From positions 1-64,000 of the forward strand of contig JAJPIQ010000081.1 in assembly GCA_021324685.1 (NCBI GenBank): 64,000 bases of DNA. Direction: 5' to 3'. This DNA comes from Bacteroidota bacterium. GTDB lineage: Bacteria > Bacteroidota > Ignavibacteria > Palsa-1295. The translations under genes were made by a program, and so were the position numbers. Positions 34,951 through 45,571 of this stretch are shown in pieces; positions within the stretch are counted from its first letter, which is position 1; each line of letters opens with the position of its first letter. The notes under the pieces were generated by a model that saw nothing but the letters and a program-made list of their open reading frames with translations, was not told the DNA's origin and did not search any database.

Positions 34951-36102
34951 ATGCAGTTCACACTCGAGCGGACCGACGCCGTTTCCAAAGCCCGCGCTGG
35001 TATCCTCTGGACCGTGCATGGCGAAATTCCCACGCCGGCCTTTATGCCGGTGGGAACGAATGCGACGGTCAAGGCGCTGACCGCGGAGGAGGTCTGGGCA
35101 ACGGGCGCGCGGATGGTCCTGGCGAATGCCTACCATCTCTATCTTCGCCCGGGGACCGAAATTATTGCGAACGCCGGGGGGATTCACCGGTTTGCCAACT
35201 GGAAGGGAAGCGTACTTACGGACTCCGGCGGGTATCAGGTCTATTCGCTCGCCGATTTGCGAAAAACGACCGATGAAGGCGTCCATTTCAAAAGCCATCT
35301 CGACGGCTCCGCCCATTTTTTTACGGCCGAAAAGGTGATCGAGATCCAGCGCGCGATCGGCGCCGATATCGTCATGCCGTTCGACGAATGTCCGCCCTCC
35401 AATGCCGATCGGAAAACGATCGAACGTGCCGTGCACCGCACGATTGCCTGGGCCTCGCGCTCCATGGAACATTTTTCCAAACATGGCGCCCGACACGGGT
35501 ACGAACAATCGTTGTTTCCCATCGTCCAGGGAGGGACGCACCGCGACCTCAGGGAATTCTGCGCTGTGGAACTAATAAAAATGGGTGCCGAAGGCTATGC
35601 GATCGGCGGTCTCGCGGTCGGGGAACCGAACGAGACGATGTACGAAGTGACGGACTGGACGACCGACGTCCTGCCCCCGGAAAAACCTCGCTACCTTATG
35701 GGCGTGGGAACTCCGCTCGATCTGCTGGAGTCGATCGCGCGCGGCATCGATATGTTCGATTGCGTGCTTCCGACCCGCAATGCCCGCAATGCGCAGCTCT
35801 TTACCCGCGATGGGAAGATCAATATTACCAATGCCAAATGGAAGCGAGATTTTTCGCCGATCGACGAAGAGACCGATTCCTATGCCTCGAGGAATTTTTC
35901 AAAGGCCTATTTGGCCCATCTTTTTAACGCGAACGAGATCCTCGGCCTGACGCTTGCGACCCTTCACAACGTTGCATTTTACGAACAGCTTGTGCGGGAA
36001 GCGCGGGAGCGGATTATGAATGGGACGTTTGCTCCGTGGCTTGGCGAATTCAAATCGCGATACCAAAAATCCAGCGTTGCAGTCTCCGATGAAAATTCGT
36101 AA
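34951..36102 (+). CDS. tgt: tRNA-guanine transglycosylase with altered zinc site
   Basis: A 383-residue Tgt. Catalytic residues are present: Asp91 in LTDSGGYQV and nucleophile Asp270 in MFDCVLPTRNARN, with the substrate motifs MPFDECPP and IVQGG. The C-terminal zinc site is not: the E. coli pattern E-C-D-C-Y-T-C (Cys302, 304, 307) reads E-T-D-S-Y-A-S here (Thr308, Ser310, Ser313), while the fourth ligand His339 remains in LHN. The surrounding helices (NFSKAYLAHLFNANEILGLTLATLHN) are well conserved, so the loss looks specific. The enzyme inserts preQ1 at position 34 of GUN tRNAs. It overlaps the Nudix gene by 14 bases. Confidence 0.93.
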   Translation: MQFTLERTDAVSKARAGILWTVHGEIPTPAFMPVGTNATVKALTAEEVWATGARMVLANAYHLYLRPGTEIIANAGGIHRFANWKGSVLTDSGGYQVYSLADLRKTTDEGVHFKSHLDGSAHFFTAEKVIEIQRAIGADIVMPFDECPPSNADRKTIERAVHRTIAWASRSMEHFSKHGARHGYEQSLFPIVQGGTHRDLREFCAVELIKMGAEGYAIGGLAVGEPNETMYEVTDWTTDVLPPEKPRYLMGVGTPLDLLESIARGIDMFDCVLPTRNARNAQLFTRDGKINITNAKWKRDFSPIDEETDSYASRNFSKAYLAHLFNANEILGLTLATLHNVAFYEQLVREARERIMNGTFAPWLGEFKSRYQKSSVAVSDENS

Positions 36103-36586
36103 TCAGGGACGCGGGATCGTCGTCAATGCAAAAGGGGAAATCCTTTTTGTGAAGCACAGGGATGAGGTTCCCGCATCTCCCGGAGAGCCGGACCGACTCG
36201 AATATTGGGTGCCACCCGGTGGCGGCGTCGATGTCGATGAAACCTTCGAAGAAGCCGCCGTTCGTGAAGTGTTGGAAGAAACGGGGATTGTGATCGACGA
36301 GGTTGTGCGGTTCATGCACACGGTCGAAAAACCGCTCCGATTTGGTAACGAAATGCGACTCATGCACGCGCAATATTTCTTGATGCGAATCCATCACGAT
36401 GGCGCCGCCGCATCAGTCCGCGATCCGGGCGAAGGCATCATCGACGTGCGATGGTGGAGCGATGAAGAGATGGCGCGCTCCGGTGAGGTTTTTCGGCCAT
36501 TGGGCATTGAAGCCATGTGCGTGGATGCGTTAGTCGAATTGGGATTCGTACGTCGTGGGCTCTCATACACGGAGGGGAAGCAATAA
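36089..36586 (+). CDS. Nudix hydrolase
   Basis: A 165-residue Nudix protein with a complete Nudix box: GGVDVDETFEEAAVREVLEE, then TGI. The N-terminal strand VVNAKGEILFVKHRD is typical. The substrate is a nucleoside-diphosphate derivative that cannot be named from sequence. The start overlaps the 3' end of tgt by 14 bases, which suggests co-transcription. The 172 bases after it contain no gene. Confidence 0.88.
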   Translation: MKIRNQGRGIVVNAKGEILFVKHRDEVPASPGEPDRLEYWVPPGGGVDVDETFEEAAVREVLEETGIVIDEVVRFMHTVEKPLRFGNEMRLMHAQYFLMRIHHDGAAASVRDPGEGIIDVRWWSDEEMARSGEVFRPLGIEAMCVDALVELGFVRRGLSYTEGKQ

Positions 36587-39020: not shown

Positions 39021-39104
39021 GCCCAAGTGGCGTAATTGGTAGCCGCAGCAGACTCAAAATCTGCCGTTCGCAAGGACGTACCGGTTCGAGTCCGGTCTTG
39101 GGCA
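39021..39104 (+). tRNA. tRNA-Leu (anticodon CAA)
   Basis: An 84-nucleotide tRNA. The acceptor stem GCCCAAG (39021-39027) pairs with CTTGGGC (39097-39103), with discriminator A. The D-arm holds GGTAG, the anticodon stem GCAGA/TCTGC encloses loop CTCAAAA with anticodon CAA, a long variable arm (class II) follows, and the T-arm is ACCGG-TTCGAGT-CCGGT. CCA is not encoded. Confidence 0.95.
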
Positions 39105-39412
39105 CGAAAGAGGAATGTGGGCTGGATGCCGCGAGCCGAACCATTCCATGGGGTGTCTGTTTTAGGATCTGCCTGTTTTGTTAATCAGCTCGATTGTATG
39201 GCATGTGTGTTCGATTCCCCGTTTGCACCTAATCGCTCTTTGAGGTGAAGTAAGAGAGCGTCTTTTCGCATGTGCGAAAAAGGCTCCGATAGGGAAGCTC
39301 CGTACGCGTAAAATCGATGGAATGCAAAGCACGATTTGAACGCAAAGCTCTTTAGCATCGCAGCGTTTTTCTAACTTACAGTCTTTTCAAACCTTATGTC
39401 TCGATCAAAACT
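39105..39412. other. 308-base intergenic region after tRNA-Leu
   Basis: No gene is supported. Short open frames here overlap the tRNA or lack any recognisable feature. It contains a perfect 8-bp palindrome (39263-39280) listed separately, and should hold the promoter of the lipoprotein gene at 39413. Confidence 0.5.
39263..39280. repeat. perfect inverted repeat upstream of the lipoprotein gene
   Basis: TTTTCGCA (39263-39270) and TGCGAAAA (39273-39280) flank a 2-base centre. No T-run follows on either strand, so it may be a protein-binding site rather than a terminator. It is 133 bases before the next start codon. Confidence 0.4.
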
Positions 39413-40642
39413 ATGAAAAGAGTAATTACCTGTGCGGCATTATCGTTAGCATTCTTATCGTCGTGCACTACTACCGGTCAATTATCGGGATCCGGATTGG
39501 CCGCATTAGGTTGCGTGCTCCAGGCCGAAGGCGGGACTAGTGTCTCGAATACCCCGCCATCGACTATTTTTCCTCCGAACAGTCCCAAGCAGGTGCCACT
39601 GTCGGTGCACGGATCGAAATCGATTCCCGGCCCGGCACAGACGATCGAACTGCGCGGCTGGCTGACTCGAGTCGACATGAGTTGCAACGGAGTAGATCCC
39701 GATTGGCATTATAATCTTGCGATCGATCCAAAGTGGGCAATAGACCATCTCGGCATCGATATAACCCAACTCATCCTGCCCGGAAACATCAACGAATTTT
39801 CCGACGACCTCGTCCCTACCAATACCGAGATAACATCCGGCGCTACCACCCCCGACGGGCGCACGATTAGCTGGGCAATGGTCGGCAGACCCACCATCCA
39901 TGTCGAATTAAATGGGTGGAGACCCTCTGATCACCCAGGCAAAACGCCGCCGTCGGACTGGGGATGGTCGAATTCGAATGGATGCCCGGGAGTTGTATGG
40001 GCATTCAATCCAATTAATCCTCTCGCATGCGCGGCGCCACTTCGGGTGGGAATGTATGTTCGGATCGTGGGCTCGCTCATTACCGACGAACCGCACGATC
40101 AGTCCGCCGGAGTTCCCACGTGGTGGGTAAATAGCTTTGGGGAGAGTGCACCCGGAGAGCAAGGGCAGGCAGGTCCCGATGCATTGAATGCCCTTCAGTT
40201 AGACTGGGCCGGGGGGCTTAACAGCTATGATGCTAATAATCCTGCCCGATGGTCTGAAATTCATCCTCCCGATATTATTGCCGACATCGATACGTCTTCG
40301 CCGATTATGCCAACCGAAACGTTTGAGGGTGTCACGGTCATGTCAAAAAATTGTATTGGAGGATATCCGGGAGCAAGTTGTACCCCTACGACCCTGGACG
40401 TGGATATCGCTCCTCCCAGCAATATGCCGGTCGGACATAACGGAGTCAATTGTACGGAGATCGTAAGTAGATTTACGAATTTTAGAACGATCATCGATGG
40501 CAATAATGGCAGTAGCAATAACAGCGGAGCGAAAATTACCTTTTTCTCCGATCATGTACATGTGCATGTGACCGTACAGGGCCAGACCGCATGGGGAGCC
40601 ATGGGTAAATTCGTGGCTTTTTACCGGGTGTCGTGGAAGTAG
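39413..40642 (+). CDS. large lipoprotein of unknown function
   Basis: A 409-residue protein with a lipoprotein signal peptide: MKRVITCAALSLAFLSSC with lipidated Cys18 followed by TTT. No known domain was recognised. Visible features are a Pro-rich linker (about 47-75), many Trp and Gly residues in the centre (NGWRPSDHP, DWGWSNSNGCPGVVWAF), several Cys pairs that could form disulphides, and a His-alternating strand HVHVHVTV near the C-terminus (FFSDHVHVHVTVQGQTAWG). It lies 78 bases upstream of the solenoid-oxidoreductase gene on the same strand, so a shared function is possible but unproven. Confidence 0.7.
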   Translation: MKRVITCAALSLAFLSSCTTTGQLSGSGLAALGCVLQAEGGTSVSNTPPSTIFPPNSPKQVPLSVHGSKSIPGPAQTIELRGWLTRVDMSCNGVDPDWHYNLAIDPKWAIDHLGIDITQLILPGNINEFSDDLVPTNTEITSGATTPDGRTISWAMVGRPTIHVELNGWRPSDHPGKTPPSDWGWSNSNGCPGVVWAFNPINPLACAAPLRVGMYVRIVGSLITDEPHDQSAGVPTWWVNSFGESAPGEQGQAGPDALNALQLDWAGGLNSYDANNPARWSEIHPPDIIADIDTSSPIMPTETFEGVTVMSKNCIGGYPGASCTPTTLDVDIAPPSNMPVGHNGVNCTEIVSRFTNFRTIIDGNNGSSNNSGAKITFFSDHVHVHVTVQGQTAWGAMGKFVAFYRVSWK

Positions 40643-40720
40643 GGAAGAAAATCGAGGAGCAACGTTGAGGAACAGTTCCCACCTATTCATTTTCATTTAA
40701 AAACCCGTACAGGAGACGTT

Positions 40721-43573
40721 ATGTCATGGACGAATGGAGCCATTAGCGGCGGAGTCGTTACCCACTCCGATACCGGGAATATTCACATTACCGGGAACAT
40801 CGATAGCGGTGCCGTTGTCACGCTCGCCACCACGGGTGGAACGATTATTATCGATGGCAAAATCGACGGTGGCAGCACCGTGAACCTCACAGCGTCAGGG
40901 GACATTCAAATTGGCGCCGCCGGTGGCAACCGGGACAACCTTAAGATTGACGGAGGAAGCACGGTCACGGTCATGTCCGGTGGGGCGGTCTCCTTAGGGG
41001 GAAAGATCGATCACAACAGCAATGTCTCCATGGTGGCCAATGGTGGATCGATCACGATCGGCGGGAAGATCGATCATAACAGCGTCGTTGAGTTTACCGC
41101 TTCGGGCGATGTCCTCATCGGTGCGGATTCGACCCTCGGCGGTGGCGACCGAAAAATTGACGGAAACAGCAACGTCGCGGTACAAGCGGGGATTAGGATC
41201 CATCTTTTCAACAAAATCGACGGAGGGAGCATCTCTGGCGCTCACTCCACGGTAGACTTCAAAGCTTGCGGAGGCATTGCCATCGACGACAAGATCGACG
41301 GCGGTTCGGTCGTCCGCCTGGCGGTCAATTCCGGAACTATCACGATAGGAGACAAAATCGGTGGAGGGGGGACCAACGTGACCTTTTGGCCGCCCACGAG
41401 TCTCCTGGTCACGAACGGAATTGATTCCCATGCGATCGTCACCCCTTTGAACTGGGTCGGCGCCTTTTCATGGTGCAGCCCATCCGGCACAACCGGCGGA
41501 GCCGGGCAACAAGGATACTATTGGCAAAACTGGCCCATGACATTCGGCTACGTCACTCCGAATCGTGTGTATCCGCGAACGGTTGCCGATGTGGTCGCCG
41601 CGGTTAAGCAGGCCGCGCTGAATGATCTTCCGGTAAAAGCGATCGGCGGCGGATGGTCTTTTTCGGACGCGTCGTTACCGATGACGAATCAGGCAGATGT
41701 CGACGCAGTATCCATCTTGAAGCGAGGAGCAAATGGAACTCAGGATTTCCACAACATCCTGCAGGGGTTAAATAACGGTACCGTTTTGCCGGCCGATTTT
41801 CAGCCGGAAGTTGTCGATAGCGACCTGGCGGGTTCCCAAACGTATGACCAGACCACACTCGAGGAGGTCACTGCCAGTGGAGCCAATCTTCCCCTGGCCA
41901 GCGAGACGATGCTCATCGACACACGCGGATTAGCATCGAGTTTACAGGGCCAGTTGCACTCCATCCTGTCCGATCCAGCGCGCCGGTCCACCAAACATTA
42001 TTTCCACGTCGAGGCAGGAATCACGATGGAAGACCTGGACCAGCTTCTGGACCACCAGAATCCCAGACTCGCGCTGCAAGCCTCCGGAGGGTCGGTCGGA
42101 GCGACGTTAGCAGGTACCCTGGCATCCGCAACCCACGGCGCCGAGTTTCAATGGCCCTTATTGATCGATTGTGTTCGCGCGATTCATCTCGTGGCTCCGG
42201 ACGGAAAAGAATGGTGGATCGAGGGAGATGTGCCGATCGCAGATTTTACGCGTCTTAGAAGGACCTACCCGAATATCAGCAGGAATCGCTTCGTTTCGGG
42301 TTCCCGGCATTTGTCCGGACTGAGTGCACAGGACATCTTAAACGCCGTCATCGTTTCGATGGGGACCATGGGAGTGGTCTACTCCGTCGTGCTGGAAGTT
42401 GTTCCGCAGTTCGGCCTCCAGCAGATTTGCGTGGCAATACCGTCGTTACCGTTTTTTGTGAATTCCTGGGAGTTTTTACTCCTGCGAGCGGGGACGAATG
42501 TGGCCGAGATTCGTAGCGGAAGCACCGCGGCGAATATCAAAGTGCTGAACTTCCTGCTCGACGGTGCGGCGAACGGGACGGGCATTGCCTATAATTCCCA
42601 TAGCACTGAGAATGTATTTTGCGACCTCGCGATTAATCCGCTCAATCAGGACTGCTGGATCACCAACCGGCGGGTGACTCCATCGATACCGATAGATGGG
42701 AACAGTCCCGCCACGGACTGGTTGGGTGCCCTCAATCAAACGCTCGGGGGCCGAGCTCAGGGCGATGTGATGGGCAGCATGACTATGGGTCGAATCTTCG
42801 ACTTCCTCAATTGGGCCAAGGACGTGGCGAATCCGTTCGACGACCTCAACGATATTCAACAAGCCGGTCGGCTCGGAACTTTCCTAACTTCGTTTCCCGA
42901 CATTCTTGTGGCGGCGGCGGCGACCCTGAGCGCACAGGCGGTGGCCAACGGTGCCAATGAGCCAAACAATCCGGACCGGGGGCAGCAGTTTTTGGCAGAT
43001 GCGCTCTCCGGGTTTCTCCACGCCGTCCAGGGTACCGTCAACGGCGCGACGGGAGATACGACCGCCGTGTCGTACAAGATCTGGGGCTTCGGATGGCCAG
43101 CTAACGGGTTCCCTGGAAGAGGTCTGGAGATTGCGCTGCCGCGGGAGACAGCATTTACGTTCCTTCAAACCGTCCTGTTCGATCAGGTATTAACGAATAC
43201 GATTCAGGCGGGCAACATGCCTCTGATCGGCTACATTTCGGTGAGAGTTTGTCCTCAGACAAACACCCTGATGGGAATGCAGCAGTTCAGTCCCTATTCA
43301 ATTATGATCGAAGTCGTGGGCTACCGGTCCCCGGAAGCAAATTTTGTGATGAACCAGATACAACAACTGGCATTGCAGGCACAAAATGTCATGCTTCATT
43401 GGGGGCTGGAAAACGATCAGGTGACGGCTGCGAATCTGGCGATGATGCCCGTATCGAATCCGCTATCCGGTACATCGGAAACTCGGCTTTCCGCATTCCA
43501 GAAAGTTCGGCAGTTACTCTCGGGCGGGAACACGAACTTCGAGAATAATTTCGTAAACCGCCTAAACCTGTAA
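40721..43573 (+). CDS. beta-solenoid repeat domain fused to FAD-linked oxidoreductase (PCMH/VAO type)
   Basis: A 950-residue protein with ribosome-binding sequence AGGAGA before ATG and no signal peptide. Residues 7-241 are about ten imperfect repeats of 20-29 residues on the pattern KIDGGSxVxLxAxGGxIxIG (Lys at 47, 75, 95, 116, 145, 165, 191, 212), as in right-handed beta-helices. From about 275 a PCMH-type FAD domain follows: FGYVTPNRVYPRTVADVVAAV, GGGWSFS at 309-315 and SVGATLAGTLASATHG ending at 473, then MGTMGVVYSVVLEVVP. At the site where sugar-lactone oxidases have GSGHS with a flavin-linked His, this protein has Trp, so the FAD is probably not attached there. The C-terminal 350 residues would form the substrate domain; the substrate is unknown. 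Confidence 0.82.
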   Translation: MSWTNGAISGGVVTHSDTGNIHITGNIDSGAVVTLATTGGTIIIDGKIDGGSTVNLTASGDIQIGAAGGNRDNLKIDGGSTVTVMSGGAVSLGGKIDHNSNVSMVANGGSITIGGKIDHNSVVEFTASGDVLIGADSTLGGGDRKIDGNSNVAVQAGIRIHLFNKIDGGSISGAHSTVDFKACGGIAIDDKIDGGSVVRLAVNSGTITIGDKIGGGGTNVTFWPPTSLLVTNGIDSHAIVTPLNWVGAFSWCSPSGTTGGAGQQGYYWQNWPMTFGYVTPNRVYPRTVADVVAAVKQAALNDLPVKAIGGGWSFSDASLPMTNQADVDAVSILKRGANGTQDFHNILQGLNNGTVLPADFQPEVVDSDLAGSQTYDQTTLEEVTASGANLPLASETMLIDTRGLASSLQGQLHSILSDPARRSTKHYFHVEAGITMEDLDQLLDHQNPRLALQASGGSVGATLAGTLASATHGAEFQWPLLIDCVRAIHLVAPDGKEWWIEGDVPIADFTRLRRTYPNISRNRFVSGSRHLSGLSAQDILNAVIVSMGTMGVVYSVVLEVVPQFGLQQICVAIPSLPFFVNSWEFLLLRAGTNVAEIRSGSTAANIKVLNFLLDGAANGTGIAYNSHSTENVFCDLAINPLNQDCWITNRRVTPSIPIDGNSPATDWLGALNQTLGGRAQGDVMGSMTMGRIFDFLNWAKDVANPFDDLNDIQQAGRLGTFLTSFPDILVAAAATLSAQAVANGANEPNNPDRGQQFLADALSGFLHAVQGTVNGATGDTTAVSYKIWGFGWPANGFPGRGLEIALPRETAFTFLQTVLFDQVLTNTIQAGNMPLIGYISVRVCPQTNTLMGMQQFSPYSIMIEVVGYRSPEANFVMNQIQQLALQAQNVMLHWGLENDQVTAANLAMMPVSNPLSGTSETRLSAFQKVRQLLSGGNTNFENNFVNRLNL

Positions 43574-43840
43574 CGGCTGAAATCTGTAACGGACCGATTA
43601 GTCGAGGAACTTTATCCATACTTTCTGGAGGCTACCCTCGCCGATCTCCAAAACGAAGGTCAGCATAGAGCCACATAATTTACGGTGGAGCGTTAGGCAA
43701 CTTATCTTTTTTATAGGATAACGGCTTCGCTGTTCATGTATAACACCGTTAACACACATATACAGAAGATCTTTCTGAAAGAAATTTAAGGCGATGCCAT
43801 TCGAAACGGAGCTGGGCCGGCTCCTGTTGGGCGGCGGCGT

Positions 43841-45085: not shown

Positions 45086-45571
45086 ATGAAAGCTTGCCTG
45101 GTCGGTCTTTTTCTTTGTCTTGCGATCCTCTCGAACGGTTGCAACGGGAACATCACGAATCCCTATACGCCGCTGAACCCGGGGTCGCTCACGGCCGATT
45201 ACCCGGACGGAACGGAATTTATTTCTTCGGAAGGCCATGTCGCCAACGATGGGACCGATTATGTGGTCACGGCGACGCAGGACGTCAGCGGGGCACCCGC
45301 CGATGAGATCACGATGCAGATCCCGATCCCAGCGAATTCGACGGTGCCGTTTACCGTGAGTTCCTTGCCGGACGATGCGATTGTGACCTATTACGATGCC
45401 GTGACCGGGATCACGTACGAGGCGAACTCGACGCAGGGAAGCTGCACGATTACCGTGACCCAAATCTCGCCGACCTTCCAGGGGACCTTCTCGGCGCGGA
45501 CGACTTGTAGCACGACGTTAGACAGCGTTCGGACGCTGCAAAATGGAGCATTCAATGCGAATTACCAGTGA
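45086..45571 (+). CDS. small lipoprotein of unknown function
   Basis: A 161-residue protein with a lipoprotein signal: MKACLVGLFLCLAILSNGC, lipidated Cys19. The mature part is Thr/Asp/Pro-rich and predicted mostly beta (YVVTATQDVSG, ITMQIPIPANSTVPFTVSS, SCTITVTQISPTFQGTFSARTTCS), with one Cys pair. It has no recognisable family. It follows mnmA after the tandem-repeat segment and appears to be transcribed in the same direction. Confidence 0.65.
   Translation: MKACLVGLFLCLAILSNGCNGNITNPYTPLNPGSLTADYPDGTEFISSEGHVANDGTDYVVTATQDVSGAPADEITMQIPIPANSTVPFTVSSLPDDAIVTYYDAVTGITYEANSTQGSCTITVTQISPTFQGTFSARTTCSTTLDSVRTLQNGAFNANYQ

Follow-up and report, generated by a model that had tools for sequence, protein, structure and literature searches.

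The closest described systems to the protein studied here belong to the L-galactonolactone dehydrogenase and alditol oxidase branch of the VAO/PCMH flavoenzymes. In GalDH, residue 113 governs oxygen reactivity, as alanine at this position keeps O2 out and glycine lets it in (PMC11099136). For the alditol oxidase AldOAb, the substrate residues are Glu327, Arg329, His350 and Lys382 (PMC10771423). We analyzed a 64,000-nucleotide stretch of a Bacteroidota genome (hereafter, the window; contig JAJPIQ010000081.1), in which a single gene joins an enzyme of this branch to an N-terminal beta-solenoid made of KID repeats. The enzyme part has an ordinary VAO/PCMH fold, and it is the KID solenoid at its front that is unusual. 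A ribosome-binding-like AGGAG lies just 5' of the open reading frame, and no in-frame alternative start was found upstream. The gene and its domains are as follows.

40721-43573, + strand: KID-solenoid/FAD oxidoreductase fusion gene, ATG start, 950 aa; the ORF is exact and complete
40721-41455, + strand: N-terminal beta-solenoid, aa 1-245 (AlphaFold2, periodicity against shuffles, homology to the relative L021)
41519-41677, + strand: first half of the PCMH FAD-binding domain, aa 267-319, with W312 in GGGWSFSD (alignment with relatives and PDB chains)
41678-41896, + strand: clade-specific insert inside the PCMH domain, about aa 320-392 (alignment with relatives)
41897-42430, + strand: second half of the PCMH domain, about aa 393-570, with the gatekeeper-equivalent G456 and ATHG at 470-473 (Pfam and profile alignment)
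42431-43570, + strand: substrate ("cap") domain of the GalDH/alditol oxidase type, aa 571-950 (alignment, PDB profile, Foldseek)

Pfam FAD_binding_4 (PF01565) matched residues 424-499 (E = 4.7e-13), and solenoid-free relatives of about 500 aa from the same phylum aligned over the whole enzyme part, from a WxN motif (residue 268) to the F..NF..R..L end. Searching the PDB with a nine-sequence profile returned xylitol/alditol oxidase 2vfr as the best match (E = 1.7e-36), with GalDH 8qnc (E = 9.6e-32) and DprE1 also detected. The AlphaFold2 model of residues 256-950 is of modest confidence (pLDDT 58, pTM 0.65), and Foldseek aligned it to GalDH 8qnr (E = 7e-11), DprE1 and AldO 2vfr with probability 1.0 and both domains covered. 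The PCMH FAD domain of the VAO/PCMH superfamily is therefore present (PF01565, Foldseek), as is the second, substrate-binding cap domain (Foldseek over both domains, and a third profile segment that aligns to AldO with the HWG motif). The first-pass annotation had described a long unknown domain at the C-terminus. Because Foldseek aligns both domains to GalDH, DprE1 and AldO, this part is, as judged from alignments and the predicted model, the substrate domain that is normal for aldonolactone/alditol oxidoreductases, made larger by inserts, among them a mainly helical one (about residues 656-800); the alignment to the ~500-aa relatives together with the fold match rules out an unknown domain. 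R842, E864 and HWG (893-895) fall within the substrate domain. The insert in the PCMH domain is shared with L021 and missing from the ~500-aa relatives. The sugar 1,4-lactone oxidase model TIGR01678 scored 54.6 bits, below its cut-off of 396.8, and PF04030 (ALO, D-arabinonolactone oxidase) was not reported for the protein.

The solenoid comprises about 11 coils of 20-21 residues each (KIDGGS...IxIG), with the consensus KIDxxSxVxLxAxGxIxIG; the first-pass annotation had recognized the periodicity correctly and put the count at about ten. Nine KI[DG]-type coil starts are located at residues 26, 47, 75, 95, 116, 145, 165, 191 and 212, and coils with an inserted loop (those starting at 47, 116 and 165) extend to 26-29 residues. 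Residue autocorrelation peaked at lags of 20-21 (0.18-0.19), which was equalled in none of 2000 shuffles, and the KI[DG] count was 8 in the protein versus a maximum of 4 in shuffles. For residues 1-260, AlphaFold2 run on the window sequence plus a single homologue confidently predicted an all-beta solenoid (mean pLDDT 85.7, pTM 0.87) in which the beta-coils, with three short strands per ~20 residues, are stacked as a rod. Along with the periodicity and the FAD_binding_4 match, this supports the original proposal of a beta-solenoid and a PCMH-type FAD domain in one protein.

A Foldseek search of the solenoid against the PDB gave no significant neighbor. The best hit was tapirin (E = 0.08), and the loose beta-helix likenesses (tapirin, pectate lyase and tailspikes) are mostly extracellular polysaccharide-binding beta-helices. 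Nothing was found at E ≤ 0.001 among viral models, no Pfam family covers the solenoid, and a Pfam search at E values up to 10 detected no bactofilin domain in the protein. An ice-binding solenoid was considered and dropped, as the coils, inspected by eye, have no regular outward T-x-T ladder. Neither the KID repeat nor the fusion was found in the family libraries searched, and the literature searches made returned no paper on the repeat or on such fusions, in line with the initial remark that the architecture was an unfamiliar one.

The same domain order is found end to end in L021, a protein encoded by an Acidobacteriaceae MAG (DAHXOQ010000083.1). It shares 50% identity with the window protein and is its sister in the tree (support 96), and its N-terminus is homologous to the window solenoid (42% identity). 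L021 is 1014 aa long with more coils and different inserts, and its gene has another genomic neighborhood. In another genome of the same order (L038), an enzyme of the same type is followed by KIDQHS coils at the C-terminus. The L038 gene (L038:5632-8400, - strand) is decayed or mis-assembled, its FAD enzyme and KIDQHS solenoid being read in three frames with two frame shifts. A KID-coil profile was run on 629 genomes, i.e., 178 from the class of the window, 258 from the order of L021 and 193 from the class of L022. Strong matches occurred in only three (the window, L021 and L038), always with the FAD enzyme, so the KID coils do not belong to a common, described fusion. In these comparisons the fusion is rare, not unique, and the solenoid can be attached to either terminus of the enzyme. 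Exact-peptide scans of genome and viral contigs with the whole protein revealed no close relative, tblastn searches of plasmids and phages with the solenoid or the enzyme gave nothing useful, and scans of viral contigs detected no KIDQHS coils.

Other enzymes of this group carry different modules. In an Acidobacteriia MAG, L023:4848-7979 encodes a Trp-clade FAD oxidoreductase (see below) with a PLL-type seven-bladed lectin domain (E = 2.7e-21). L080:3111-7610 encodes a FAD oxidoreductase of 1500 aa; WRWCxKCQGLF repeats lie inside this protein, and Ig-like domains of the choice-of-anchor D/ASH kind lie at its C-terminus. At the place of the window protein's PCMH insert, L080 carries a longer stretch peculiar to itself.

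The position of the flavin-linking histidine is filled by W312 (GGGWS). This substitution had been noted at first; it is real, and it is a trait of a whole clade, not a peculiarity of this protein. On one side of a 51-sequence tree (branch support 98), all 22 rows have Trp at this site, whereas the other side has His in 23 of 29 rows and Trp in one. This side, hereafter the Trp clade, includes bacterial FAD proteins of about 500 aa (L005, L009, L013 and L017) with full-length homology and the GGxWS motif; they lack both the solenoid and the inserts of the window protein's subgroup. Our searches brought no characterized member to light. The histidine that binds FAD covalently in sugar 1,4-lactone oxidases being replaced by Trp, a covalent flavin was rejected, and since the Trp marks a clade, non-covalent FAD is likely.

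Gly456 aligns with residue 113 of 8qnc (GalDH A113G), so that Gly and not Ala occupies the gatekeeper position. This is compatible with O2 use and suggestive only, because alditol oxidase is an oxidase with a gatekeeper Ala; use of O2 by the window protein is plausible. In the profile alignment, Glu327, Arg329, His350 and Lys382 of AldOAb correspond to S840, R842, E864 and L896, meaning that Arg alone of the substrate set is kept, together with the THG and HWG motifs. As the other positions are Ser840, Glu864 and Leu896 here, they do not allow the substrate to be deduced. From the conserved sequence features, FAD binding and sugar-alcohol-like chemistry are likely.

The fusion gene lies in an accessory segment of 4.7 kb, directly 3' of a tRNA gene, with the following features.

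39021-39105, + strand: tRNA-Leu(CAA) (ARAGORN and Rfam)
39106-43840, no strand assigned: accessory segment carrying the fusion and lipoprotein genes, from tRNA-Leu(CAA) to mnmA; absent in the congener G004
39413-40642, + strand: predicted lipoprotein of 409 aa with a lipobox-like LSSC, 78 bp upstream of the fusion gene in the same insert (from sequence)

In G004, a genome of the same genus, the order is greA, tRNA-Leu(CAA), a short spacer and mnmA, without the segment, and the fusion gene was found in none of the 12 other genomes of the family. Horizontal gain of the gene is the simplest reading, with loss in the other genomes possible, and the tRNA gene is likely the integration point. A tRNA-3'-end-like stretch near the start of the segment (39200-39232) may be an integration remnant. 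The 409-aa lipoprotein has no Pfam or NCBIfam match and no clear homologue among the related loci compared, and a shared origin with the fusion was not found. Elsewhere in the window, the tgt ORF (34951-36102) and the nudix-type ORF downstream (36020-36586) overlap by about 80 bases (36020-36102), and a small lipoprotein gene (45086-45571; sub-threshold DUF6252 match) is kept beside mnmA in several family members.

We consider it probable that the window protein is a horizontally acquired, non-covalent flavin oxidase acting on a carbohydrate-like substrate, with the solenoid as a swappable binding or positioning module. The enzyme part would be a non-covalent FAD-dependent oxidase of the VAO/PCMH superfamily, in the Trp clade of the L-galactonolactone dehydrogenase/alditol oxidase branch. 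Acting on a polyhydroxylated substrate, carbohydrate-like or otherwise, it would oxidize a carbon of the alcohol or hemiacetal type and pass the electrons to O2, working as an oxidase and not a dehydrogenase. The KID solenoid would be an independently folding accessory module, exchanged in the course of evolution for a PLL-type lectin propeller or for Ig-like domains, and would bind or position the substrate, or a surface bearing it, instead of building filaments. The fusion gene would have arrived next to tRNA-Leu by horizontal transfer. Binding or positioning is the most likely role for the solenoid in our analysis, on the indirect grounds that other members of the clade bear a lectin or Ig-like domains and that the solenoid occurs at either end; what its ligand might be is a guess, because the solenoid has no significant structural neighbor. 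This reading draws on only three KID solenoids, one of them in a frame-shifted gene (L038). Somewhat unlikely, in our estimate, is the more specific proposal that the KID solenoid represents a new glycan- or polymer-binding beta-helix family, which, placed before or after the non-covalent flavin oxidase, directs this enzyme to a polymeric substrate.

The solenoid could instead mainly self-associate, with bactofilin- or FapA-like stacking into dimers or larger complexes, and so cluster or stabilize the enzyme. The three short strands per ~20-residue coil recall the solenoids of those proteins, and the L038 solenoid gave a sub-threshold FapA match (E = 0.14), but the lack of a Pfam bactofilin match and of any significant structural match argues against this, and we regard it as unlikely. 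In addition, one end of the rod is capped in every case by the enzyme fused to it (the window protein and L021 have the solenoid at the N-terminus, L038 at the C-terminus), so that end-to-end stacking could give dimers and long filaments are unlikely. That the solenoid is a passive stabilizer or spacer, whose coil number drifts neutrally, would fit the unequal coil numbers and inserts of the window protein and L021. It is rather improbable given that K-I-D-x-x-S is conserved across phyla and in L038, and that the enzyme, judged by its wide distribution, works without any such module.

Non-classical export, with the solenoid anchoring a surface enzyme or adhesin to the envelope or matrix, would agree with the domains typical of secreted proteins in relatives (choice-of-anchor D, PLL lectin) and with the mostly extracellular, polysaccharide-binding nature of the weak structural neighbors. 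However, the N-terminus of the window protein is hydrophilic, with a Kyte-Doolittle maximum (15-residue mean) of 0.95 versus 2.01 in the adjoining lipoprotein, and neither a signal peptide nor an anchor of the kind expected of an exported adhesin is apparent. When the N-terminal sequences of L021, L023 and L080, and those of the ~500-aa relatives, were read, no obvious signal peptide was seen either, making export quite improbable. The first-pass annotation was right about the missing signal sequence and found it odd for a solenoid protein; since the relatives of the enzyme family that were checked also lack one, there is no paradox, and the protein would be cytoplasmic at synthesis.

The apparently undescribed repeat module and the swapping of modules are additions to a well-studied flavoenzyme branch. 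The Trp clade, wide in bacteria and with the covalent-flavin His uniformly replaced, offers a natural test of the role of the His-FAD bond, as well as of what the attached modules bind.

Compared with known systems, the solenoid resembles those of bactofilin and FapA in being all-beta with short coils of about 20 residues, and differs in having no significant sequence or structure match to them, in its fusion to an enzyme and in its own consensus. The enzyme part shares with GalDH and the gulonolactone and arabinonolactone oxidases (PDB 8QMY-8QNR; TIGR01678) the two-domain VAO/PCMH fold over its whole length and the R (of E-x-R) and HW motifs. Like GalDH it has no His for covalent FAD, and like GULO/ALO it has Gly at the oxygen gatekeeper. 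It differs from this branch in having Trp instead of Leu at the His site, Ser in place of the Glu of E-x-R, large inserts, the N-terminal solenoid and a low NCBIfam score (55 versus 397 bits). AldO (PDB 2VFR, 8OT8), the best PDB profile match, has the THG and HWG motifs and the substrate-site Arg in common with the window protein; AldO has a covalent His-FAD, the Glu/His/Lys substrate residues and no accessory module, whereas the window protein has Ser840, Glu864 and Leu896 at those substrate positions.
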